From contig NZ_LDZY01000005.1 of NCBI RefSeq assembly GCF_001029285.1, positions 124,001 to 188,000 of the forward strand: 64,000 nt of DNA. The letters are read 5' to 3'. The notes beneath the pieces were generated by a model. That model was given only the letters and a program-made list of their open reading frames with translations, ran no database searches and was not told the DNA's origin. The position numbers were made by a program, and so were the translations under genes. Position 1 is the stretch's first letter. Each line of letters opens with the position of its first letter. The stretch comes from Desulfosporosinus acididurans. Its GTDB lineage: Bacteria; Bacillota; Desulfitobacteriia; Desulfitobacteriales; Desulfitobacteriaceae. This document shows, in pieces, positions 346 to 37,746 of the stretch.

Positions 346-1104
346 TTAAACCGGAATAGCGCCTCCAGCAGCGAATCGAGCAGCATTTTCCTGGGACTGT
401 AAATAATTAATTCCGGCAGCCGTGACAGTGGCTGTCTGACGAGTTGTATAAGCGGAATTAGCACTCTGCTGATTTGTTGACGTAGACGGAATGTTTAATA
501 CTTGCCCCACGTTGATAACATTAGGGTTTGACAATTGATTAGCCTTCGCAATAGTATTAACCATTGTCGCTATATCGTTGGCCGAAGCACTACTTCCCAA
601 AGTCCTCTGAGCAATCCCCCAAAGCGTATCTCCCTGTTTAACCGTGTAGGTTTGATCCATGTATTGAGCAATGGATTCTGTGCTCGTAGTCGCTGGAGGA
701 GTTTGAGCAGGGAGAGTTGTCGTTGTCGTTTGTTGCTGTGGAGCGTTATATCCGGACTTTGGCGGGATAATAATAAGATCAATGGTATAGTCAACGCGAT
801 CATCACGGATATATTTAGGCTGAAAAGAATCAATCCTTACTTCTCTCTGAATAGGTCCGTAGAGGAGAGTTTGTGGCAACCCTTGGTCCATCAAGGATTC
901 AATAGTTTCCGCTTGTGTCCATGCATCACTGGTAACGATGGACCCGGAAAACGATAGCTTCTTTTCATCGATTCCTAAATCCTGATATGTCGGCGTATCG
1001 GACGTTTCAATCTTGTTAATCTTTCGTACGAAATCGAAGTCTAAACTCTCTTTAGGAGACAAGGCGAATATATAGCTACCTATCGCTAAACTAACCAAAG
1101 CCAA
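346..1104 (-). CDS. LysM-domain baseplate protein (XkdP-like)
   Basis: 252 aa, start TTG 1104 chosen because AGGAGGCGAG lies at good spacing. Residues about 1-125 are a phage-type N-terminal domain. A Thr/Pro/Gln-rich linker (about 122-145) follows, then a LysM domain (about 152-206) with the typical YTVKQGDTLWGIA start and a VINVGQVLNIP end. LysM binds peptidoglycan; in PBSX-type tails the equivalent protein sits between tape measure and hub and is thought to join the baseplate or help wall contact. The C-terminal 45 residues are low-complexity Ala/Thr/Gln-rich. Same operon direction as its neighbours. Confidence 0.8.
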   Translation of the reverse strand: MALVSLAIGSYIFALSPKESLDFDFVRKINKIETSDTPTYQDLGIDEKKLSFSGSIVTSDAWTQAETIESLMDQGLPQTLLYGPIQREVRIDSFQPKYIRDDRVDYTIDLIIIPPKSGYNAPQQQTTTTTLPAQTPPATTSTESIAQYMDQTYTVKQGDTLWGIAQRTLGSSASANDIATMVNTIAKANQLSNPNVINVGQVLNIPSTSTNQQSANSAYTTRQTATVTAAGINYLQSQENAARFAAGGAIPV

Positions 1105-1117
1105 TCATCTCGCCTCC

Positions 1118-3628
1118 TCATCTCGTTGGTTGTAAAGGAAGTGCTGATCGATAATACTTATCCTGTGTATTTCTGATCTCCCTCGCTGCCCCTTTAGGAT
1201 TCGTCGAAGAAACATTGTAATTATGAATGATCTGAGTCGGCGCGTTTCCTCCGTGGCCTCTACTGCCAAATGAACCGACTGACGCAGTACGTCCAGACAT
1301 CCTCTTAGCCGCGGCTTCGGCTCTCGAAGAATTATTATCAATTCCGTTCGCAAGGCCTTGGACAATATTCATCCCATAACCGGCAAAGACAACGGATGGC
1401 GAATGAATGCCAAGGAAAGACTTGAATGGACCGGCAATATACTTACTAGCAAAATTACTTATTCGGCCTCCGATCCAACCCGCGAAGTTAGTAATCCCTT
1501 GCCAAAGTCCTTTTACTATATTGCCGCCCCAATCAACCGCTTGATGCCAAAGGTTTGAAAACGTGTTGCCAATATTTGACGCAAACTGTTTCATCCAGTT
1601 CCACACTACGCCTATTACGGCGCTTACTTGCTTCCAGTGAGTAATCATAAGTATAATACCCGCAACAAGCGCCGCGATGACCACAATGACAATTCCGATT
1701 GGATTGGCTGTCATAGCTGCATTTACGAGCCATTGCACTGCCGCCCATGTTTTACTCGCGGCTGCGACTGCTAACTGAGCCGCTTTTACTGCTACAGTTT
1801 TAACCGCATTGGCCGCCATTGCAAGAGTTGATTTACCGATACCTAGCGCAAGCTGGCCAACTGATTTTGCTGCACTCAAGGCATTCGAGCCAAAGGTCTT
1901 CATAGCACCACCTGCAGTTTTTAGAGTGGATAAGCCTTTGCTTCCGACCATCGTACCTAAGCTTTTAATGCCTCCGCCAACTATTCCAGCGCCTTTTTTA
2001 ATACCCCCCCAGCCCTTACCGGCAATTCCTCCTATGCGTTTAATTAATGGGGATGAATCCTCAAGACCCGCAAATAAAGATGTTAACCTTCCTGCTCCAA
2101 GCTGGCGAAATTCAGAGTAAACTTTTCCCGTATTAGAGATTCCCTTACCGATCTTTAAACCGCCTTTTACAACACCCGCTATTCCACGGCCAGCTCCGAA
2201 TAATTCTCTGAGAGGTGCACCAACAGCAATCTTAGCAATGCCGCTTCCAATCTTAAAAGCCGCTAAGCCTCCCCATATCTTAGCCAAAGTTTCAACGAGT
2301 CCTTTATGCTTATCAATAAAACTCTGGAATTTCGGGAGTTCCTTGTTTAGAGCAGCAAAATCGTTTGTAAGGGACGGGAGAAGCATAGTTCCTACTTGAC
2401 GGCCAAAGTCTTCGAGAGTAGAAATGAATGTCGTGAATTGTTGGCTGACCTTCCCTTTGTTTATATCAACACTCTGATCAATAGTTGGAACTTTCGCCAT
2501 TTGCTGTTGCATCTGAGCAAAGTATTGTGGGTTTTGCGCTACAGCTGAAGCGATAGCCTGACCCTGTTGGCCAAAGACACGCGTCATTAATGCATTGAAC
2601 TGCTCTTTATTTCCCATCTTCTGATAGGTTTGTCCTAGAACGCTAAAGATCTGGCTAGCACCAACTAGATTCCCTTTCGAGTCGTGAAAGACGTCGCCTG
2701 TTATGCCCGCGACATTCCCCTTTTTGTCGTACGTAGCCCCCTTAAGCCAACCCATTTGCGCAAAAGCATTTACAATAGGTTTACCCATCATCGTACCCAT
2801 ATGGCTCATTGGATTTAATCGCTGGAAGAAGTCCTTAAGATTCGTCCCCCCCATCGAACCCTCCAGCCCATAACGAGCTGCAAGCCCCTGGGTAAGCATA
2901 ATATCTGACGGCGTTAAGCCCTGAATAGTTCCAACCATATTAAAATATCGCGAACTGTCCGATAACGTCCCGACATTCGAATTTGTAACGGTTGCGATAC
3001 GGTTAACCTGCTCCGCCAATTGTTTTACTTTTGCGGGGTCCATAGCAATTTGCAACTGCTCCGTCATCTGCGCGAACTGTTTTGCTGTCGTCTGCGGATC
3101 GGCACCGTTACGGTTTGTCTCAAGCTCTGAAAGGTAAGTAGCAGTTGTTCCGACATTCTGAATTTTGTTATAATCCATCCCTGCCTGAGTTAATGCCTGA
3201 TCAATGCCGAGTATTTGTCCAGTGTTAAACCTCGTATTTCGCATTGTGTTCTGAGCTTGGCTAGTAAGGTTATTCACTTGCCCATCTGTCATCCCGGTAA
3301 GCTTAAGCTGCATCTGTGTATCCTGCACACCCGCCGCCGCCTTGACAGCCCCAACAAGAGGAGCTGCCATGATGGCGCCAGTTATCAGATCATGGGTACC
3401 GGATTTGACCAGCTTATCCATAGCGTCCTGTGCAGATTTTAATTTGCCACTGACTTTATCAAGTCCCGAAATAGCACCATCAAACCAAGAGCCTCTATTT
3501 GATGCGGCATTCATCGTGTTTATTTGTGTCTGTAATGTCTCAACTTGTCTTGCAGCCTGCTGGATAGCTGGAGCCATCTCGTTTACGGCCCTAATTACCA
3601 TAGATACTGTAAAATCCGCACCGGCCAT
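1118..3628 (-). CDS. Phage tail tape measure protein
   Basis: 836 aa, the longest late gene, as expected for the protein that sets tail length and crosses the membrane at infection. I place the start at ATG 3628, seven bases after AGGAGG; the upstream GTG at 3634 is too close to that site. The first 60 residues are helical (AARQVETLQTQINTMN), residues about 90-400 resemble the TP901 tape-measure core, and about 560-700 is a Gly/Ala/Lys-rich hydrophobic region with a clear membrane-type helix near residue 655. The C-terminus has the FLGIHSPS motif common in these proteins. It lies between the frameshifted chaperone gene and the LysM gene. Confidence 0.92.
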   Translation of the reverse strand: MAGADFTVSMVIRAVNEMAPAIQQAARQVETLQTQINTMNAASNRGSWFDGAISGLDKVSGKLKSAQDAMDKLVKSGTHDLITGAIMAAPLVGAVKAAAGVQDTQMQLKLTGMTDGQVNNLTSQAQNTMRNTRFNTGQILGIDQALTQAGMDYNKIQNVGTTATYLSELETNRNGADPQTTAKQFAQMTEQLQIAMDPAKVKQLAEQVNRIATVTNSNVGTLSDSSRYFNMVGTIQGLTPSDIMLTQGLAARYGLEGSMGGTNLKDFFQRLNPMSHMGTMMGKPIVNAFAQMGWLKGATYDKKGNVAGITGDVFHDSKGNLVGASQIFSVLGQTYQKMGNKEQFNALMTRVFGQQGQAIASAVAQNPQYFAQMQQQMAKVPTIDQSVDINKGKVSQQFTTFISTLEDFGRQVGTMLLPSLTNDFAALNKELPKFQSFIDKHKGLVETLAKIWGGLAAFKIGSGIAKIAVGAPLRELFGAGRGIAGVVKGGLKIGKGISNTGKVYSEFRQLGAGRLTSLFAGLEDSSPLIKRIGGIAGKGWGGIKKGAGIVGGGIKSLGTMVGSKGLSTLKTAGGAMKTFGSNALSAAKSVGQLALGIGKSTLAMAANAVKTVAVKAAQLAVAAASKTWAAVQWLVNAAMTANPIGIVIVVIAALVAGIILMITHWKQVSAVIGVVWNWMKQFASNIGNTFSNLWHQAVDWGGNIVKGLWQGITNFAGWIGGRISNFASKYIAGPFKSFLGIHSPSVVFAGYGMNIVQGLANGIDNNSSRAEAAAKRMSGRTASVGSFGSRGHGGNAPTQIIHNYNVSSTNPKGAAREIRNTQDKYYRSALPLQPTR

Positions 3629-3708
3629 TATCACCCCTCCTCACCTTCCAGATGTATCCACAACAAAACCGCCCTCATATAGAGAGCAGCTTTACTTCTA
3701 GGTACGTC

Positions 3709-3858
3709 TTAATCTTTGTTTAACTCATCTTGCAACCAAACAAATGACTCCCACATAGCCTCTTTTAGATCGCTGTTGAGGCTGAGCCATCGGTCGATGG
3801 AGCACTGGCAAGGCTTTGCGAGCTGAACCCATCTGTAGAGGTCGAGTTCCCGAGCAAA
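3709..3858 (-). CDS. Tail chaperone frameshift extension (gpGT-like C-terminus)
   Basis: In the -1 frame after the slippery site, an open stretch of 49 codons runs to a TAA at 3709-3711. It reads ARELDLYRWVQLAKPCQC, then SIDRWLSLNSDLKEAMWES and a short end, which is a far more protein-like tail than the Ser/Thr-rich zero-frame end. Joined to the first 107 codons it gives a 156-aa fusion. The Trp-rich segment resembles the C-terminal domains of myophage chaperone fusions. There is no good independent ribosome site, so I infer translation only by -1 slippage. Confidence 0.72.
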   Translation of the reverse strand, partial: FARELDLYRWVQLAKPCQCSIDRWLSLNSDLKEAMWESFVWLQDELNKD

Positions 3859-4178
3859 AAAGCTGCTTTCTCCTTTGCATCCGCCATTTTTGCTTCTGTC
3901 ATACCGAACATTTCAGAATGAACAGCTTGATAGTACTGAACATCCATATCGTTCCATTCGTTAAACAGATTTTTATAGTTGGGATCTGGAACTTTCCCAT
4001 CAACCTCCGTTACGACTTTCGCCTGAACGTAGAGATTAATCAGTAAGCTACCTGTAACAACGTTATCCTGATCCATTGGAACCATCTGAGTGACATTCAT
4101 CCGGTCTAAACCTGTTGGATTTCGAAATTTAATAACTTTCCCTGATGGTAATGTTAAGGGTCCATAAACTTGCGACAT
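3765..4178 (-). CDS. Tail assembly chaperone, short form (XkdN-like)
   Basis: 137 aa in frame 0, start ATG 4178 after AGGAGGAAAAGATC. Its place between tail tube and tape measure genes is that of the gpG/XkdN tail assembly chaperone, which coats the tape measure during tail polymerisation. The last 30 residues are Ser/Thr-rich and look like a read-through tail rather than a folded domain, which fits a gene whose functional partner is made by frameshifting just upstream. A slippery heptamer lies at 3855-3861. Sequence similarity to the chaperone family is weak by eye; position and frameshift are the main support. Confidence 0.8.
   Translation of the reverse strand: MSQVYGPLTLPSGKVIKFRNPTGLDRMNVTQMVPMDQDNVVTGSLLINLYVQAKVVTEVDGKVPDPNYKNLFNEWNDMDVQYYQAVHSEMFGMTEAKMADAKEKAAFLLGNSTSTDGFSSQSLASAPSTDGSASTAI
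3855..3861 (-). promoter_or_regulatory. Programmed -1 ribosomal frameshift site T TTT TTG
   Basis: On the minus strand the zero-frame codons are GCT TTT TTG, giving the canonical X XXY YYZ heptamer T TTT TTG. Slippage back one base joins the upstream chaperone frame to the open -1 frame that ends at 3709. A slip of this kind between overlapping frames upstream of the tape measure gene is a conserved trait of long-tailed phages. Confidence 0.78.
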
Positions 4179-4208: not shown

Positions 4209-4643
4209 TTACGCTTCAATAAGCCCTTCCGCTTTAAACGAAAGGTTGCTCTCCACTACGCCTTTACCTTGCTTGATAGAAAGGGCGGTTTTATCAATAA
4301 TGACACCTGTGAGCTGATATGTCCCGTTCAATCCTTTGTCTGGCGCGTTAATAGTGGTTGTAATTACAAACCGGGGACTCGCCGGGATGTTCTGTCCTGG
4401 CTGCAAATTGCCAGTTCCCACAGTGGCCGCTACGATGTTCATATCCAACCAGCCTCGTTTAAGCGTCCCATCAAGAGTGATATCGCCATCCAATAAGATA
4501 GGCATCCGACTGTTGAGGGTTTGATAGGTCTCCACTGCATTAGCAATGTTAATATCAACCTCTTGCCACTCACCGGCAAGCTCTGGGCCATTAGGACCCA
4601 TTACACTAGCAGAAACGTCATGACCCTGTACTGGTCTGTTCAT
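4209..4643 (-). CDS. Phage tail tube protein (XkdM-like)
   Basis: 144 aa, start ATG 4643 after GAGGAGGAACAGC. It has the compact beta-rich composition of contractile-tail tube proteins, with the segments GEWQEVDINI, ITLDGTLKRGW and LTGVIIDKTALSIKQGKGV, and ends NLSFKAEGLIEA. It would polymerise into the inner tube inside the sheath. In PBSX the tube gene directly follows the sheath gene; here a small ferredoxin gene is wedged between them and overlaps this gene's start by 26 bp. Confidence 0.87.
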   Translation of the reverse strand: MNRPVQGHDVSASVMGPNGPELAGEWQEVDINIANAVETYQTLNSRMPILLDGDITLDGTLKRGWLDMNIVAATVGTGNLQPGQNIPASPRFVITTTINAPDKGLNGTYQLTGVIIDKTALSIKQGKGVVESNLSFKAEGLIEA

Positions 4644-4926
4644 GCTGTTCCTCCTCTCTGTTCTGTTCGGTACTTAAATCTTCTTGATATTTAGGTTCTT
4701 TAATTTCCTCAGGCTCCTTAAGCCCATCAGATTTTTTAACTTCCGCAGGCTTTTTTTCGGCTTTAATTAATCCTATCGGGCAAGCAGAAATACAAAGTCC
4801 GCACTCAATACAGCCTTCTCCGATAACAGCTTTACCATCATTAATTGCAATTGCGTTTGTCGGGCAAACGCCAGGACGGACGCATTTCCCACAGCCTGGA
4901 CAGTGCTTAAGAATAGTTACGCTCAT
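4618..4926 (-). CDS. Ferredoxin-like 2[4Fe-4S] protein inside the phage tail operon
   Basis: 102 aa. The ATG at 4926 overlaps the sheath stop as ATGA, suggesting translational coupling; a GTG at 4947 is an alternative start. Eight cysteines form two cluster motifs: C9-x2-C-x2-C-x5-C-P (residues 9-22) and C39-x2-C-x2-C-x3-C-P (residues 39-50), the second a textbook bacterial ferredoxin motif. Residues about 57-102 are a Lys/Glu/Pro-rich tail with no visible fold. The coding end overlaps the tail tube gene. Known ferredoxins shuttle electrons; whether this one does, or is a structural tail part or chaperone partner, cannot be told. It is co-oriented, coupled and flanked by essential tail genes, so it is probably expressed with the virion. 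Confidence 0.9.
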   Translation of the reverse strand: MSVTILKHCPGCGKCVRPGVCPTNAIAINDGKAVIGEGCIECGLCISACPIGLIKAEKKPAEVKKSDGLKEPEEIKEPKYQEDLSTEQNREEEQHEQTSTGS

Positions 4927-6311
4927 GATGAACTCGCCCCGCTCCACTGCGCAATGTAGTTATCAATAAAGTCAGCCGCAAATAACGGTTGAACGCTTAT
5001 TGAAGTAACAACCCGGCGCTGATTATTTGAATCGCGATAAGCCGTCGTTGGCTGATAATCAGTAATCTCTTCATTTTTCGTCTTGGCCGTCAAGAGGTGA
5101 TTATCAATCCATGTTGCTAACTGCTGAGGTAACTTTGGATCCGTGCTCGATTTTGCCCACTGAGTTCCAATATAAATTTCAGTTTCAAGCTTATCGAATT
5201 CACGGCGAACGTTGATCTGCGACCAATCGTCACTGCTGCCATCCGTCGGCATCACAAACATATTCACGCCATTTCGGATAACAAAATCACCGGTTAGCAG
5301 ATCGAGCGTAATCGGGCTTACTCGTGCCTTCGTAAGATCGAAAACGTCGTCATCGTCATATGCAATCTCCAAACTGGATAATCCTTGAACAACTTGATTC
5401 GATGGGCTTTCACACGCCAGGATATTCGAAAGCACACCGGCATAATGGCCGTCCGTAGCAACCACTACACCCGACAAATCGTCAAACGTCCCCCAAGGCG
5501 ATGCCATAATCCCACGTAATCCCTGAAGGCTTGCCATGGCTGTAACTGTAGCTATCTTGGCCTGACCGCTTGGCATATTAAGAACTGGGAAACACAGACC
5601 ATTTGCGACGTTTGTGTTGGCTCCCATCGCAAGAAGAGCAGCCTGTATCGTTGCACTGGACTGTTGCGCACACAAAACAATGTGCACCGGCACATTCGAG
5701 AGGGCATTAAGGCCAGTGACATAATCCGAATCTTGCGTAGTGGCTCCGTCATCCCCGCCAGTTAACGGTGTCGCGCTAATGGGTACCGGCAATGCATTTG
5801 CTCCTGATGCCGCAGCTACACTTACATTCGAGTCAACAACCGTATTTAAGTTGGTTAGCGTAAGATTGTCATAGATCTGCGAAGTGCCGTCTGCAATGAC
5901 AATTAACTTAACCGTACTCGGAGCTGTTCCTGCCTGCCATGACACTGAGATTGGTTTAGTCCCAGGGTACAACGCAGTAACAACAACCGAAGGCTTACTG
6001 GTTGAGTCGTTCGTCGTTAACGACGCTTTCGCTGCGGAAGCTCCAGCGATACGTATTACGGTCACATCTGCACTCTTGTTTTGTTTATAAATTCCATGTA
6101 ATGAAAGCCAGCCGGTTAATCCTGCTGTATAACCGCCAAAAATATCTTTGAATGACTGTTCAGCATAAGCTCGAATAGGTACCCCTACAGGTCCCCAGCT
6201 AAACGTCCCAACCAGACCGATGCTTCCCATGCTTACATTCGGCTGCTGGTTCGTTGCTTGCGGTTTCTCGATAAGATCTATTCGAGGCACCACATATTGT
6301 GGTTCTTGCAT
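4923..6311 (-). CDS. Contractile tail sheath protein (XkdK-like)
   Basis: 462 aa, start ATG 6311 after AGGAGGTTAAGCC. Features of myophage sheath proteins are visible: an N-terminal strand followed by GSIGLVGTFSWGPVGVP (about 28-44), a central domain with repeated ALSNVPVHIVLCAQQ and GLRGIMASPWGTFDDLSG segments, and a C-terminal region with GVNMFVMPTDGSSDDWSQIN and RREFDKLETEIY. The length fits XkdK (about 466 aa). Its presence shows that the prophage is a contractile-tailed (myovirus) type. The ferredoxin gene follows with a 4-bp overlap. Confidence 0.93.
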   Translation of the reverse strand: MQEPQYVVPRIDLIEKPQATNQQPNVSMGSIGLVGTFSWGPVGVPIRAYAEQSFKDIFGGYTAGLTGWLSLHGIYKQNKSADVTVIRIAGASAAKASLTTNDSTSKPSVVVTALYPGTKPISVSWQAGTAPSTVKLIVIADGTSQIYDNLTLTNLNTVVDSNVSVAAASGANALPVPISATPLTGGDDGATTQDSDYVTGLNALSNVPVHIVLCAQQSSATIQAALLAMGANTNVANGLCFPVLNMPSGQAKIATVTAMASLQGLRGIMASPWGTFDDLSGVVVATDGHYAGVLSNILACESPSNQVVQGLSSLEIAYDDDDVFDLTKARVSPITLDLLTGDFVIRNGVNMFVMPTDGSSDDWSQINVRREFDKLETEIYIGTQWAKSSTDPKLPQQLATWIDNHLLTAKTKNEEITDYQPTTAYRDSNNQRRVVTSISVQPLFAADFIDNYIAQWSGASSS

Positions 6312-6315
6312 TGGC

Positions 6316-6804
6316 TTAACCTCCTATCGTCATAATTTCAGTAAAATCAAGTTCTTCCATCGGCTCAGACGGCGTAATGGATCGTGTACGAGGTCCATAA
6401 TACGTTACTTCCCATACGGCTTCACCAAGATGAAGAACCTCAGTTTGGCTCGCATTGACTGTCGCGAACTCCCATTCAGAAAGAAAGCTATCGTCAAGCA
6501 GTCCTCCTAATCTTGGGGTGTCTGCCGTAAGAAGTAATCGTATTTCCTCGGCCAAGGCGCGAATGCGGGCTTCTCCATTCTCAGGGTCCATATCCTGAAG
6601 GCCAATACCAATATGAATTTTAGCGTCCACTTCGTCATCGTCATTGGTATAGGGTTTGAAGTTTTGTTTGGGAACCCAAACACTACATGTCGTTTCGAGA
6701 CCAGGAATCATACCCTCGACCTTATGAAAGGTTATTATAGGCTCAGGCAACAACGTATCCGCTTGGATAGCCGCTGTGATCGCATTAAGAATATCATCAA
6801 GCAT
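6316..6804 (-). CDS. Probable tail terminator / tail completion protein
   Basis: 162 aa, ATG 6804 after AAGGAACGTG. It lies just before the sheath gene and just after the virion morphogenesis gene, which is where PBSX-type phages carry XkdJ and others a gpU-like tail terminator. Visible features are an N-terminal helix (DDILNAITAAIQ), a beta-rich middle with WVPKQNFKPYTND, and a helical repeat GEARIRALAEEIRLLL. No catalytic motif. Function is assigned from synteny only. Confidence 0.6.
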   Translation of the reverse strand: MLDDILNAITAAIQADTLLPEPIITFHKVEGMIPGLETTCSVWVPKQNFKPYTNDDDEVDAKIHIGIGLQDMDPENGEARIRALAEEIRLLLTADTPRLGGLLDDSFLSEWEFATVNASQTEVLHLGEAVWEVTYYGPRTRSITPSEPMEELDFTEIMTIGG

Positions 6805-6808
6805 TTAA

Positions 6809-7444
6809 TCACGTTCCTTCTCGGATATAGGCCATCGTTAAGCGCTCGATCACGGCAATATCTTCAAGTTGAATTGCGAGGTACGGGCGAGCTGGAATTT
6901 TGCGTTCGGGAATATTCGCAGAGCGCCGGATAATAGTACCGTTTGCCGTTGGGATCACTAGCGCTTGCTTATCCTTCGGCTTAATCGTAATCGGCCCAAT
7001 CGTGCCCCCGAGCTGATGAATGCGGGCATAAGGGAGAGAGGAACCAATCACAACACTGGAGTCTGTTACCTCTCCAAGAACAATGCTCTGACGCAGCTCT
7101 CCGCTCTGGACCAGTATCTTGTGGCCGCCTACGTCCTTCTCTACTCTTGAAGACTCAATGCTCCGCTTTGTTGATTCCTTTTTCGCACTCTGCCATCTCT
7201 TCGTACTCTGTGCTTTTTGAACAGCCGAAGCTTGATAAGACGCAGCCGTCTTTGCACTAAGCGGCTTCCATTTTGGTCGACCTTCCATTGCAAAGTTCTC
7301 ATGAACCGAAGCAATTAAAGCAATTCCAATACGACCCATAAGCGGACTTAGACGAACGCCACGGACGGCCATTGACTCCAAAACGTTTTGAACCGTGTCA
7401 ATGCCTTTTGCCTCAATCTTGATCTCAACATTACTCACGGCCAT
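6809..7444 (-). CDS. Phage virion morphogenesis protein (Mu gpG / HK97 gp10-type)
   Basis: 211 aa, ATG 7444, overlapping the previous gene by 10 bp. The family pattern is clear: an early FAMEGRPKWKPLSAKTA segment (W-K-P-L, residues about 50-70), then LVQSGELRQSI (about 120-130) and SLPYARIHQLGG (about 145-157), typical of phage tail completion/virion morphogenesis proteins. It would act at the head-tail joint. A Lys/Ser-rich stretch at about 75-105 is likely flexible. Confidence 0.87.
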   Translation of the reverse strand: MAVSNVEIKIEAKGIDTVQNVLESMAVRGVRLSPLMGRIGIALIASVHENFAMEGRPKWKPLSAKTAASYQASAVQKAQSTKRWQSAKKESTKRSIESSRVEKDVGGHKILVQSGELRQSIVLGEVTDSSVVIGSSLPYARIHQLGGTIGPITIKPKDKQALVIPTANGTIIRRSANIPERKIPARPYLAIQLEDIAVIERLTMAYIREGT

Positions 7445-7931: not shown

Positions 7932-8933
7932 CTAGCTAGCTGTACCGCTAATGTACCAGTTCGGGTGATGAACACGAGGCAAACCATTGATGCCGACAGT
8001 AACATCCACGAAAGGATTTTTCTCATTTGCGGATTTGTCTTCAATAGCTGAGAACTTACCCGGCTGAGGATTATCCATGCCACCATTCTGAAGCGCAAGA
8101 GTTGTACAGAAGTCCATACCGACCTCATTGCCTTTGCCAACGCCAACAAAACTACCCGCCGGTAAGAATTGAGTGAACGCTTTACCATCCGGGCTATACC
8201 CTTCAGCGTATACCTCAAAATTCACCTCTGGGAACAAAAGATGGAGTGCTTTAGAAATATTAGAAGCAGACAGGTTAGTCGCATAGACACTTTGCTTCAA
8301 CATGTCCATTAAGGTTGCGTTGAGAGCAAGGGCTTTAGCCACTTGATGGCTTAGATAGATGGTATCAAGAACAGCACCCGTACCGAAAAAGAGCTCTTGA
8401 AGTGCCGCGATATCCTGGGCTATGTTTTGTTCAGGGTTACTAATCCATGGCAGTGTGACTTTGTTGCTATTGGGGATCTTCATATCCACGGTGTAGTTTA
8501 CGCCATTGTCGTTGACCTGGACTTTACCATTCACCAAAGCAGACCAGCGCAGTTGCTCAACGCGAGTATCCAGCCGAGTATTAAGCTCTGTAGCACGTCG
8601 CATCACACGAAGCCGTCCGGCACGCTCGTTGTACGTACCTTCTTGTCGAGCATAGAGTAATTCTTCCTCATTGAGGCGATAGGTCTCACGCCAGTATCCT
8701 GTCGCATAGTCGCGGACGGACTGGCCGGTTAGCGTTGCCACCTTCGGCTCGGCGTTCAAAGCGTGCGGCGGTGTGATGCCGTAGGTTGCGTTGATTACGT
8801 CGACCTGAATGCGTGCAGCATAAGCCGAAACAACCGGGCAGAATTCCATGCCTCGGTATTTTGTCGGATCTGTAATGATGTTACGGACGATATGGTTAAT
8901 TTCCTGAGTTGTTGGGAACGTCAAGTTTGGCAT
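7932..8933 (-). CDS. Major capsid protein (capsid protein E family)
   Basis: 333 aa, ATG 8933 after AAGGAGGGGTAAACA. The composition and layout resemble phage capsid protein E: an early ITDPTKYRGMEFCP segment (about 17-30), a helical RMATEL-like spine region with many Arg/Glu (about 85-130), LDTIYLSHQVAKALALN (about 190-206) and a C-terminal VHHPNWYISG. It forms the icosahedral shell (HK97 fold expected). It follows the decoration and protease/scaffold genes, as in Mu-like heads. Confidence 0.85.
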   Translation of the reverse strand: MPNLTFPTTQEINHIVRNIITDPTKYRGMEFCPVVSAYAARIQVDVINATYGITPPHALNAEPKVATLTGQSVRDYATGYWRETYRLNEEELLYARQEGTYNERAGRLRVMRRATELNTRLDTRVEQLRWSALVNGKVQVNDNGVNYTVDMKIPNSNKVTLPWISNPEQNIAQDIAALQELFFGTGAVLDTIYLSHQVAKALALNATLMDMLKQSVYATNLSASNISKALHLLFPEVNFEVYAEGYSPDGKAFTQFLPAGSFVGVGKGNEVGMDFCTTLALQNGGMDNPQPGKFSAIEDKSANEKNPFVDVTVGINGLPRVHHPNWYISGTAS

Positions 8934-29396: not shown

Positions 29397-30245
29397 TCAG
29401 ACCATACAATTTTGTATTTCCTTGATCTTTAAATTCACTGTTGCAGGCCTAGCCCAAAACCGCTGAAATTTTTCCCATTCTTTACTTACTTTCCCCTCTT
29501 TGTCTCTATAAAGCATGGCCATGGGCACGAATCCGGCCCGGATTGTTTCCAATAATCGAGCTTCTGCTTTATTAAAGGTGTCTGCAGGATATCCAATAAG
29601 AACATAAGGTCTAAGAGTTTGTGAGGTTGTTGTAAATCCCGCCGCTAAAAGTTTCTTCCCAGCCTCTAAAAGAGGTTCGTAATCATCCGGAGTATCGTAG
29701 GCAAAAAATATTTCTTTTGGCTTTAGGTCTCTTAAGAGTTTAACGTGCCAATCTTTAAGGCGTTTTGCTTCAAGCCCTCCAGTAAACATTGGCCTACCAA
29801 GTTTCTGGTGCTTTAACATTTCAAATACCGCTTTAATATGGTTATCCGAACAGGCTAGAAGATTGTCATCAAGAACGTTATTGCCTTCGTGAATTTCGAG
29901 TTCTCTCATTTGCCCTCCCTCACGGACCGGCACTCTGCAGAACCAACAGTTATTTGGGCATCCACGAGACGTAATTACATAACCTTGCTTGATATACATT
30001 CCTGGGATGAAATCCCCACCCGGAGCGTCAAAGGCTGGTCCACCAATCTTCACGGGTAACCCTGTCATCTCCCATTGTTTGGCTAACCATTCTGCTTGCT
30101 TCATGTCGTATGTGAAGGACACTGAAATGTGAACTTCGTCTATATCCGGCATGAACATTGGAGGGCAGCCATAGAAAACCAGTTCATCCGTGGGAGTTGC
30201 TTTTGTTATTCTTGGAAATACACGCGCTATTTTTATTTCTCTCAC
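29397..30245 (-). CDS. Phage-encoded radical SAM protein
   Basis: 282 aa. The radical SAM cluster motif C-x3-C-x2-C is in SRGCPNNCWFCRVP (about residues 92-105), followed by an EGN-type strand segment, a GG motif (FTGGLEAKRL, about 155) and DTPDD. A TIM-barrel of this length is complete. The N-terminus (IARVFPRITKATPTDEL) resembles phage radical SAM proteins of unknown substrate. It sits between microprotein genes and the cargo region, upstream of the methyltransferase. A nucleotide, tRNA or DNA modification role is possible but unproven. Start: GTG 30245 overlaps its own SD; an ATA at 30236 has better spacing. Confidence 0.85.
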   Translation of the reverse strand: MREIKIARVFPRITKATPTDELVFYGCPPMFMPDIDEVHISVSFTYDMKQAEWLAKQWEMTGLPVKIGGPAFDAPGGDFIPGMYIKQGYVITSRGCPNNCWFCRVPVREGGQMRELEIHEGNNVLDDNLLACSDNHIKAVFEMLKHQKLGRPMFTGGLEAKRLKDWHVKLLRDLKPKEIFFAYDTPDDYEPLLEAGKKLLAAGFTTTSQTLRPYVLIGYPADTFNKAEARLLETIRAGFVPMAMLYRDKEGKVSKEWEKFQRFWARPATVNLKIKEIQNCMV

Positions 30246-34986: not shown

Positions 34987-36576
34987 ATGACCATCCAAAA
35001 TGAACGTGTACTATTGCACCTACGTAAATCCCGCGCTGATCTAGAGGCTGAGGCACGCGGTGAGGGAGAGACGCTTGCTAAGCATGAAGCCTATCTGCTT
35101 AAGTACGCCGGCGAAAAAGGATTGAATATTGTTGAGATTCGCAGGGAAGTAGAATCTGGAGAGCATCTATCACATCGGCCTAAGATGATGGAAACACTCC
35201 GGGAGGTTGAAGCAGGGCTTTATTCAGCAGTTCTTTGCATGGACGTGGATCGCTTAGGTCGTGGAAATAAGCAAGATCAGGGTATTATTTTAGAAACCTT
35301 TAAAAAATCAAAAACAAAGATCATAACCCCGCGCAAGGTTTATGATCTTTGCAATGAATGGGATGAGGATTTCTTTGATTTTGAGCAATTTATGGCGGCG
35401 AAGGAATTAAAATACATAACCCGTCGTATGCAGAGAGGACGAAGGGCATCTGTTGAAAGCGGTAACTTTATTAACCCAATTCCCCCCTACGGATACACGA
35501 TTACAATTATAGACCGTAGTCGTATCCTTACTCCGCATTCGGAGCAGGCTGCTGTAGTGCGCATGATCTTCAACATCTATACGAGAGAAGATCTAAGCGA
35601 ACGTATGGGATCCAGCAAGATTGCCAATTACCTGAATGATATGGGGTATCCATCTGCAACCGGTAAATTGTGGTCAAGCGCTAGAGTATCAGATATAATA
35701 AGAAATCCGACATATGCCGGATTCATGCGCTGGGGGAAAAAGGATAAGCGAAAATCAACGAAGCCGGGGTTTAAAACAGAATCTACTCAGCGCAAAGACG
35801 ATGAGATAGTCTTTGTCGTTGGAAAACATGAACCGCTTGTAACAGTTGAGCGATTTCGCATAGCTCAGGAACTTATTGGTAAGAAACATCATCCGCCGTA
35901 TCACCTTATCAACGGCATCACAAATCCCTTAGCAGGGTTAGTTAAGTGTGGCTTATGTGGTAAGACTATGGTTTCCGCTCAGGGGAAAAGAGATCAGTAT
36001 ATGAAATGCAGAACACGTGGTTGTCAAACTAAAGCGGCAAAGACCCGTTATGTTGAAGAGAAGGTAATGGACGCGTTAAGTAAATGGCTGGCAGAATATG
36101 AAGTAAAATTAAAGCAGCAAAGCGAAACCGCCAAGCGTTCCAAACAAGTAGACTTTCTTGAAAAAACATTAGATAAGCTGAATAAGGAACACAACTTACT
36201 ATTAAAACAAAAAAGCAGTTTGCATGATTTATTGGAACAAGGCATCTATACCAAGGAAGATTTTCTTGAACGCTCGAGGGTACTACTAGATAAGTTGGAA
36301 GAATCACGCGCTAGAATAGAGAAATTGACTAGCCAGCTTGAACAAGACCGCAGTAAAGTTAGTTTACCAAAGGACATTGTTCCGGAAGCTAGGCGGGCCA
36401 TTGACATTTATTGTTCCTCAGCTGATGCAACTAAGAAAAATGAGTTACTAAAGTTGCTTTTGGATTATGTGGTCTACAATAAATCAAAGAGTCAACATGA
36501 GGACGATTTTGAATTAAAGATTTTCCCAAAATTCCCACAGGAAAAAGCATATTCTTCAGTGTCATCATATACGTGA
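34987..36576 (+). CDS. Large serine recombinase (phage integrase)
   Basis: 529 aa, ATG 34987 after AGAGGTAATGACCG. Catalytic Ser in LLHLRKSRAD (Ser15), the resolvase domain to about residue 150 (DVDRLGRGN), a recombinase domain with AAVVRMIFNIY and IANYLNDMGYPSATG (about 185-235), a zinc ribbon with CGLCGKTM...CRTRGC (about 320-345) and a coiled coil (about 375-460). It inserts the phage at a single site; its stop is only about 10 bp from the interrupted gspE gene, so the attachment site is adjacent. Confidence 0.94.
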   Translation: MTIQNERVLLHLRKSRADLEAEARGEGETLAKHEAYLLKYAGEKGLNIVEIRREVESGEHLSHRPKMMETLREVEAGLYSAVLCMDVDRLGRGNKQDQGIILETFKKSKTKIITPRKVYDLCNEWDEDFFDFEQFMAAKELKYITRRMQRGRRASVESGNFINPIPPYGYTITIIDRSRILTPHSEQAAVVRMIFNIYTREDLSERMGSSKIANYLNDMGYPSATGKLWSSARVSDIIRNPTYAGFMRWGKKDKRKSTKPGFKTESTQRKDDEIVFVVGKHEPLVTVERFRIAQELIGKKHHPPYHLINGITNPLAGLVKCGLCGKTMVSAQGKRDQYMKCRTRGCQTKAAKTRYVEEKVMDALSKWLAEYEVKLKQQSETAKRSKQVDFLEKTLDKLNKEHNLLLKQKSSLHDLLEQGIYTKEDFLERSRVLLDKLEESRARIEKLTSQLEQDRSKVSLPKDIVPEARRAIDIYCSSADATKKNELLKLLLDYVVYNKSKSQHEDDFELKIFPKFPQEKAYSSVSSYT

Positions 36577-37746
36577 TAATTCTTCGTCGCGAATTTCGCC
36601 AATCATAATCACGTCTGGATCCTGACGCAAGATATGCCTCAAACCGACGGCAAAAGTCAGTCCTGCCGGCAGGTTTACCTGAACTTGATTAATTCCCGGA
36701 AGTTGATATTCTACGGGCTCTTCAATAGAAATAATGTTTTGCTCCTCCGCATTTAACTCGCGAAGAAGAGCATAAAGGGTTGTCGTTTTGCCGCTTCCCG
36801 TCGGTCCAACGACTAAGATCAGGCCATTGGGATACTTTAATAACCCTTGAACCCCAGCTTTAACCTCCGGACGCATGCCCAAATCTTCTAAGGAACGTTG
36901 GGCCATTTCAGGATTTAAGACGCGAACGACAATTTTCTCTCCGTAGACCGTCGGTAGGGAAGACATGCGCAAATCTACCCGCCGCGTGCCGACGCTGAAG
37001 GTCATTCGTCCATCTTGGGGAATCCGTCGTTCTGCAACATCCATATTGGCCATTACTTTCAGTGAAGATATAATCGTGCGCGCTGTTGATCCCGAAAGAA
37101 CATGTTTTTTAAGCAGTTTACCGTCAATACGATAACGAACGACAAAATCCTTCTGACGTGGTTCCCAATGAATATCACTAACCTCTTCGATCACCGCCTC
37201 TTGAAGCACTGAGTAAACAAATCTTAGCGTTGGGGCATCTTCTTCCCAACCGTTGGATTCTCCTGATCCTTTTTCCGCAATCGCTTCATTATCTGTCTGA
37301 CCTATTAAATACGTCAATTGAGCCACAGATTGTTCTACGGTAAGATACTGGCGAATCGCAGCTCTAATCTCTTCTTCTCGAGCATAAACCGGAGCAACGT
37401 CCATGCCGGTAATGATACGAATGGTACGAAGAGCCCCTTCATCCATTGGGTCAGCCATTGCGACCATTAAGCTTTTCTCCAGAAGCTGATAAGGCATAAG
37501 GGTATAACGGCGTGCTATTTCTTCAGGAATTAAATTAACAGCCTCAGGGTCAACTACGACTTGAGTCATTGAAATCTCCGGTATACCCAAATATCGACGC
37601 AAGTCATCATTGAATATTTCCTGGGATAGAACTTTTTTCTGAAGATACTCTTCACTATTGTTGTTATCGTTAGTTTTGTTTGCTGAATAAGCATTGAATT
37701 TCCTAGAGCCCCTGAGATATCGAACGAATTCCTTTGCTTGTTTCAT
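36565..37746 (-). pseudogene. GspE/PilB secretion-pilus ATPase, 3' end cut off by the prophage
   Basis: 393 aa against about 550-570 usual. N-terminal domain (about 45-150) with NLIPEEIARRYTLMPYQL, then SDIHWEPRQKDFVVRYRIDG (190-209), Walker A LVVGPTGSGKTTTLYALL (311-328), Asp box IEEPVEYQLPGINQVQV and Walker B DPDVIMIGEIRDEE (376-389). The reading then ends within four codons. Missing are the C-terminal ATPase residues and the tetracysteine zinc site, so the product is presumably inactive while the prophage is present. First gene upstream: a pilin-like gene, two bp away. Confidence 0.9.
36577..36605. other. Prophage attachment junction (one att site) inside gspE
   Basis: Just beyond the recombinase stop, the minus strand reads a gspE gene that keeps the family sequence GEIRDEE and then departs to LSRI and a stop. 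The crossover for the serine recombinase therefore lies within about 36,577-36,605. The other att site and the gspE 3' end should be beyond the left end of the window, at the far prophage end. Confidence 0.78.

Follow-up and report, generated by a model that had tools for sequence, protein, structure and literature searches.

Why does a ferredoxin gene lie in the middle of a contractile-tail operon? The question is raised by a stretch of 64,000 nucleotides (nt) from Desulfosporosinus acididurans (NCBI RefSeq assembly GCF_001029285.1, contig NZ_LDZY01000005.1, positions 124,001 to 188,000 of the forward strand; hereafter the window), which holds most of a prophage that is read leftwards and has its genes for head and tail on the minus strand. 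Between the sheath and tube genes of this prophage, an open reading frame (ORF) encodes an eight-cysteine ferredoxin (Fd). Contractile tails rank with the most thoroughly studied nanomachines, and to our knowledge no redox protein is considered necessary for them; the slot between sheath and tube is, as far as we know, empty in classical myophages. To judge from sequence, the tail-linked Fd is real and conserved, and a role in the virion is plausible, tempered by the existence of tails that lack it.

A ferredoxin gene overlapping the sheath and tube genes

The three genes at the center of the question are the following.

4923..6311, minus strand: tail sheath protein, 462 amino acids (PHROG tail sheath, E = 1.1e-25; ATGA overlap with the Fd start)
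4618..4926, minus strand: tail-module 2[4Fe-4S] ferredoxin (Fd), 102 amino acids (Cys motifs, Fer4 models, predicted fold)
4209..4643, minus strand: tail tube protein, 144 amino acids (predicted fold; PHROG 34837, function unknown, the family also found after the Fd of the distant locus L087, see below)

The Fd start codon (4926-4924) lies within an ATGA that contains the sheath stop codon, and the 3' end of the gene (last base 4618) overlaps the tube gene by 26 nt. The translated ORF of the window has eight cysteines, arranged as CxxCxxCxxxxxC and then CxxCxxCxxxC. An intact eight-cysteine frame with both motifs, overlapping the sheath stop and the tube start, was the core of the original prediction, which had been made from the letters alone, and the sequence confirms it. 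Pfam Fer4_10 matched the protein with E = 5.4e-9, and several more Fer4 models scored above their cut-offs. In a PDB search, the structure model was superposed on the clostridial 2[4Fe-4S] ferredoxin 1fca with a root-mean-square deviation of 1.4 and a target template-modelling (TM) score of 0.86; the superposed part is the core, residues 1-60, where the predicted local distance difference test (pLDDT) gave block values of 85-95. A BFVD fold search with the model returned no match at E <= 0.001, though the same model finds PDB ferredoxins. By its fold and both four-cysteine motifs, the product is a ferredoxin, and it is predicted to bind the clusters.

The two neighbors were assigned as follows. 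Three Pfam sheath domains matched the window sheath below their cut-offs, in addition to the PHROG match listed above. The tube, which had no Pfam match, is identified through its predicted fold: the model (mean pLDDT 69.5) best matched the Clostridioides difficile R-type bacteriocin tube CD1364 (6gkx; E = 4.1e-4, probability 1.00), the sole match under E 0.001, and phage tubes were among the next matches, with E > 0.001.

The slot is filled in most related tails

We searched IMG/VR and whole genomes for relatives, using proteins and profiles of both sheath and tube. Merging of tails with identical last 150 sheath residues (L171 into L081) left 28 distinct tails including that of the window, namely 27 with a profile E < 1e-150 and L173 (1.5e-143, locus cut), which was added by hand. 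Because sheath and tube served as anchors, Fd copies elsewhere could be detected only in nine contigs that were searched in full. The sheath-ferredoxin-tube order and the conservation of the cysteines, through which the original prediction could be checked in related prophages, both held up: an eight-cysteine Fd lies directly after the sheath in 22 of the 28 tails, with six lacking it, and the tube gene comes next in 21 of the 22 carriers, the locus L039 ending at a contig edge. A chance ORF is excluded, since 21 further distinct tails of the kind have this gene at the equivalent position. When three copies next to a distant sheath type are added, all 25 copies found stand directly after the sheath, all have the eight cysteines (with the start codons chosen), and the distance between sheath stop and Fd start is -4 to +24 nt. 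Identity to the window Fd was 32-62% in 10 relatives, and that of the sheath was 36-77% in 14 relatives.

In four genome sets, which overlap, the tube profile matched 6/398, 2/59, 6/113 and 6/398 genomes, and Fd was present in 6/6, 2/2, 6/6 and 4/6 of these, respectively. The carrier hosts include Desulfocucumis palustris, Desulfofundulus thermosubterraneus and Alicyclobacillus fastidiosus, together with another genome of the order to which the last belongs; in A. fastidiosus DSM 17978, the prophage has its tail genes at 1.861-1.878 Mb of NZ_CP104067.1. The carriers of this order are aerobes, and a function special to anaerobes is therefore disfavored; an electron carrier for infection in anaerobes, as originally envisaged, would not be a general explanation. 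In one genome (G819), two different prophage tails (L170 and L173) each show the sheath-ferredoxin-tube order.

Phage collections were also searched with three of the Fds. Nine records matched the window Fd; the six that were opened, read by their ORFs with no family search (L029 over part of its length), are apparently pieces of bacterial chromosome. Seven records matched the L087 Fd, and in the one opened (Pseudomonas phage Y11) the match lies, by reading, in a formate-dehydrogenase-like operon and not in a tail. The L050 Fd gave no match. The unnamed family phrog_8732, which weakly matches the tail Fds, was likewise set aside, as its best genome matches suggest a general seven-/eight-iron ferredoxin that is not tail-linked.

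The ferredoxin is inherited with the tail and under selection

Pairwise Fd distances were correlated with those of the tube (r = 0.56; 0 of 20,000 permutations as high) and of the sheath (r = 0.29; 112 of 20,000 as high, some sheaths being truncated by the locus) across 18 Fd-bearing loci. Over the first 60 Fd codons, the Nei-Gojobori ratio of nonsynonymous to synonymous substitution rates (dN/dS) was 0.08-0.19 in six distinct pairs; these are rough values, from 12 pairs tried, of which six distinct ones were computable, three saturated and two identical, with dS near saturation in several. Where computable, the ratio was 0.03-0.13 for the sheath and 0-0.12 for the tube. In addition, a tail Fd profile scored 84.9-90.5 bits on the tail Fds of three genomes versus 47.0-50.8 on the best host Fd of the same genomes, in a test where the profile held relatives of these tail Fds and not the tail Fds themselves. 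Taken together, the comparisons indicate that Fd is inherited with the tail and kept by purifying selection.

Occurrences next to a distant sheath type

A 166.6-kilobase (kb) virus contig, L087, has a sheath and a tube that are remote from those of the window (tube 26% identical), and an eight-cysteine Fd begins 9 nt after its sheath stop. Two tandem tube-family genes follow (4736-5944, 402 amino acids; 5956-6561, 201 amino acids), both matching phrog_34837. An Fd is also present in L090 (27 kb) and L130 (15 kb), whose sheaths are 75% and 56% identical to that of L087, respectively; the tube profile found no match after the L130 Fd. We saw no Fd beside the sheath in Microcystis phage Ma-LMM01, Microcoleus phage My-WqHQDG or Alicyclobacillus phage MMB025. 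The Fd tree groups the L087 and L090 Fds with those of L078 (98/88) and L079 (96/86), which is suggestive only. Two histories would fit: a very early acquisition of the gene in this slot followed by frequent loss, or more than one separate acquisition; the Fd tree does not discriminate between them.

The C-terminal extension and the charge of the core

The part of the protein after residue 57 varies from almost none (L012, a 62-residue protein) to about 50 residues. It is predicted with low confidence (pLDDT 51-61) and to be disordered, and it contains no conserved motif, except for the last residues overlapping the tube gene in many loci. In the window Fd, the Shine-Dalgarno-like sequence AGAGGAGGAA lies upstream of the tube ATG, within Arg-Glu-Glu-Glu codons close to the 3' end of the gene, so the richness of the extension in Glu may, at least partly, reflect the tube ribosome-binding site encoded there. 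The Lys/Glu-rich tail noted in the original prediction thus exists, and the docking role suggested for it is not supported, given its variable length, predicted disorder, lack of a motif and Shine-Dalgarno-like overlap.

Classical soluble ferredoxin carriers have a strongly acidic surface. The net charge of the core is +2 in the window Fd and -3 to +3 among the tail Fds (mean 0.12, n = 25), and it is -4 to -13 in six classical host ferredoxins of 54-67 residues. The near-neutral core is a weak hint of an Fd that lives in a complex rather than as a free carrier.

Partner genes and the surrounding prophage

Gene families were compared in 15 loci with long flanks, 11 with Fd and four without. Nine families, including sheath and tube, are present in 15/15 loci; their genes start upstream of the capsid gene and end with the tape measure. 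Of all families that recur in three loci or more, Fd alone is restricted to carriers. It was clustered in 10 of the 11 carriers; the eleventh, L082, has the Fd, which was dropped by the overlap filter. Because the nine families occur in all loci and none co-varies with Fd, any partner that the phage encodes within this block would be common to all these tails. The other genes of the block in the window, with the neck and capsid genes, are listed here.

346..1104, minus strand: LysM-containing protein, 252 amino acids, probably tail or baseplate by position (LysM E = 8.9e-15; family c9, in 13/15 loci)
1118..3634, minus strand: tail tape measure protein, 838 amino acids (Pfam PhageMin_Tail and PHROG tape measure)
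3765..4178, minus strand: gene after the tube, 137 amino acids, probable tail assembly chaperone, named by position only (family c7, in 15/15 loci; no Pfam or PHROG family match)
6316..6804, minus strand: conserved gene upstream of the sheath, 162 amino acids (family c4, in 15/15 loci; no Pfam or PHROG family match)
6809..7444, minus strand: tail completion or neck protein (PF05069 and PHROG connector)
7932..8933, minus strand: major capsid protein (PF03864 and PHROG major head protein)

By these matches the element carries head genes, not a tail alone. Terminase and portal genes were assigned by reading the ORF translations, as were, likewise by eye, baseplate-like genes to the left of the window. 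The prophage interrupts a type IV pilus/type II secretion ATPase-like gene (named by eye) within a GEIRDEE motif; the halves of the split gene lie at 36565-37746 of the window and 8113-8571 of L125 (G000:C5), both on the minus strand. A serine-recombinase-like ORF (34987-36576) adjoins one prophage junction, and the two junctions have a common 17-base-pair match in inverted orientation.

The prophage of the window also encodes a radical S-adenosylmethionine (SAM) protein (29397-30245, minus strand; PHROG 9298, E 4.9e-18; Pfam Radical_SAM below cut-off). A Radical_SAM match was found in 1/14 Fd-bearing contigs, that of the window's own phage, and in 0/4 Fd-less ones, with all 14 control genomes positive; as the window protein itself falls below the Pfam cut-off, distant relatives could escape this search. 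With a match in a single carrier contig, we rejected the radical SAM protein as a general partner of Fd.

What might the ferredoxin do in the tail?

We put at about an even chance the reading that Fd belongs to the phage tail module and acts in tail assembly or in the virion. The overlapping start and stop codons make it most likely that Fd translation is coordinated with that of sheath and tube. It would then be used in building the contractile tail, or be a minor iron-sulfur (Fe-S) component of the virion, and it would probably bind a protein present in every such tail, such as the sheath, tube, chaperone, tape measure or hub. The putative clusters may have a structural role or respond to redox state, either while the tail is assembled or in the virion. 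More tentatively, we can imagine the two-cluster Fd as an undescribed class of virion Fe-S protein, an integral or assembly-stage part of the contractile tail whose clusters gate tail assembly or function by their redox state, inherited with the sheath-tube pair across phages of Bacillota and shared with, or reacquired by, a distant myophage lineage; this fuller version is a possibility that we would not yet bet on.

Several observations speak against a tail role for Fd, and the Fd-less tails are foremost among them. The six tails concerned (L022, L036, L037, L046, L081 and L172) fall in three places on the sheath trees, with a minimum of three changes: L022 is nested among carriers, L036, L037, L081 and L172 form a clade, and L046 is on a long branch of unsure place. 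The four that have long flanks keep all nine families common to every locus. The sheath stop and the tube start are 14-18 nt apart in the six tails, and no Fd was found elsewhere in the four Fd-less contigs searched whole (4.0, 35.9, 57.1 and 43.2 kb; possibly incomplete records). With six tails lacking it and at least three changes, Fd is not universally essential for such tails. The original prediction had staked itself on the gene being kept in close relatives with intact tails; six relatives are without it, L022 among carriers, yet 22 of the 28 tails carry it. Beside the distant sheath type, Fd was seen in only 3 of the 25 loci read and not in the other 22 (of 29 loci returned, L152 and L154-L156 were set aside as incomplete; the 25 include several near-copies, and the sequence of two or more of the 22 stops about 200 nt or less from the sheath). 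There was also no Fd beside eight remote sheaths of related genomes (L013-L020) or beside the remote sheaths in L060, L069/L071, L088, L092 and L093.

The Fd sequences themselves add to these points. Fd evolves faster than its neighbors, with a mean distance of 1.10 versus 0.82 for the sheath and 0.74 for the tube, and the only invariant columns among 15 Fd sequences are the cysteines, Gly13 and Pro22, so there is no mark of a tail-specific interface. An Fd-only tree (61 columns; 21 tail and 22 host sequences, with L121, L123 and most other host matches left out) requires 6 label changes at best and leaves a single origin neither shown nor excluded. Moreover, the gap in core charge fades against 13 small host Fe-S ORFs, which range from -13 to +10 with five at 0 to +10; the difference from the tail Fds (Mann-Whitney p = 0.034, sequences not independent) is weak. 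Of 19 loci entered, six were dropped for want of an ORF that met the eight-cysteine and length conditions; an earlier comparison with five small host Fds had looked strong.

The main alternative is a late auxiliary electron carrier, that is, a host-type Fd placed between structural genes for bulk late expression, which feeds host enzymes and has no role in the tail. The canonical ferredoxin fold with both cluster motifs would suit such a carrier, as would the absence of Fd from some lineages and its variable presence among relatives (22/28), which is expected of a moron or an auxiliary metabolic gene (AMG). A PHROGs family that weakly matches Fd is classed as a moron/AMG ferredoxin, and ferredoxins are reported among phage metabolic genes in the parts available of PMC8093824 and PMC11924767. 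However, a mobile AMG would be expected to move, whereas all 25 copies from the slot-anchored search occupy a single slot, where the ORFs overlap or lie close together, and a full search of five carrier contigs (possibly incomplete records) found exactly one Fd in each. The core net charge of -3 to +3 (n = 25), compared with -4 to -13 in the six classical host ferredoxins, and the lack of a recurrent radical SAM partner (other redox enzymes were not searched for) also argue against a free carrier. We consider the late carrier rather unlikely, while treating it as the leading rival.

Alternatively, Fd might travel in the virion, inside the tube or together with the tape measure, and be delivered into the host, where it would act at an early stage, perhaps on the redox balance or to counter a defense that senses tube protein. 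The gene adjoins the tube gene and co-diverges with it, and tube proteins are bound by the defense protein DSR2, according to the titles of PDB structures; but no conserved extra domain is seen, and both the ejection and the target are purely conjectural, which makes delivery improbable. It is more improbable still that Fd supplies electrons to the radical SAM protein of this prophage: that ORF does match a PHROG radical SAM family (E 4.9e-18) with the Pfam model below its cut-off, but the match in 1/14 carrier contigs and 0/4 Fd-less contigs would be hard to square with a general function. The least credible explanation is that the ORF serves mainly as a translational spacer that sets the sheath-to-tube ratio. 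It overlaps its neighbors on both sides and holds the Shine-Dalgarno-like sequence for the tube within its 3' end; the eight cysteines kept in 25/25 copies contradict this role, the low dN/dS speaks against it, and six tails manage with the short 14-18-nt spacing in place of Fd.

Returning to a function in the tail, the retention of Fd between two main structural genes across very divergent phages, some with aerobic and others with anaerobic hosts, suggests an unrecognized Fe-S step in the building or function of the tail. It also suggests that a protein type known as an electron carrier may have been given a job in a virus tail.

Comparison with known systems

In the literature searched, which comprised open-licence papers only, we noticed no description of a ferredoxin in a contractile-tail operon, and the word "ferredoxin" is absent from the portions available of PMC8146710, PMC10297869 and PMC13141910. 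The closest structural counterparts of the window Fd are the clostridial-type 2[4Fe-4S] ferredoxins (1fca and 1clf), which it equals in fold, core length and the possession of both cysteine motifs. It differs from them in its place in a tail operon, its near-neutral core and its variable C-terminal extension; in addition, the first motif in the clade of the window is CxxCxxCxxxxxC, compared with CxxCxxCxxxC in the clostridial proteins.

Phage ferredoxins have been presented as host-metabolism genes, namely ORF1 of PhiMa05 and those of viruses linked to Acidobacteriota (available parts of PMC8093824 and PMC11924767). These are phage-encoded like the tail Fd, but the same parts give no link to a sheath-tube slot, and the usual sheath gene, g91, is said there to be lacking in PhiMa05. 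A contractile-tail component that contains metal is known in the spike tip of P2 gpV, which binds iron according to a mention in the accessible text of PMC5175280; it differs from the tail Fd in being spike-tip iron rather than Fe-S clusters, in another protein and at another position. The same text offers a loose precedent in a Pseudomonas myophage, where one of several production-lowering transposon insertions was at the end of the isc operon.

A further parallel is lambda gpL, a tail-tip protein with a [4Fe-4S] cluster whose function is stated to be uncharacterized in the part available of PMC10721106. Both are Fe-S cluster proteins encoded among tail genes, with the clusters of Fd predicted. 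The gpL cluster belongs to a C-terminal four-cysteine domain of a tail-tip protein, whereas the window Fd is a stand-alone protein of 102 residues with eight cysteines, encoded between the sheath and tube of a contractile tail. If a tail role for Fd is true, it would join gpL, whose cluster likewise has no assigned role, and the part played by Fe-S proteins in phage tails would become a testable question.
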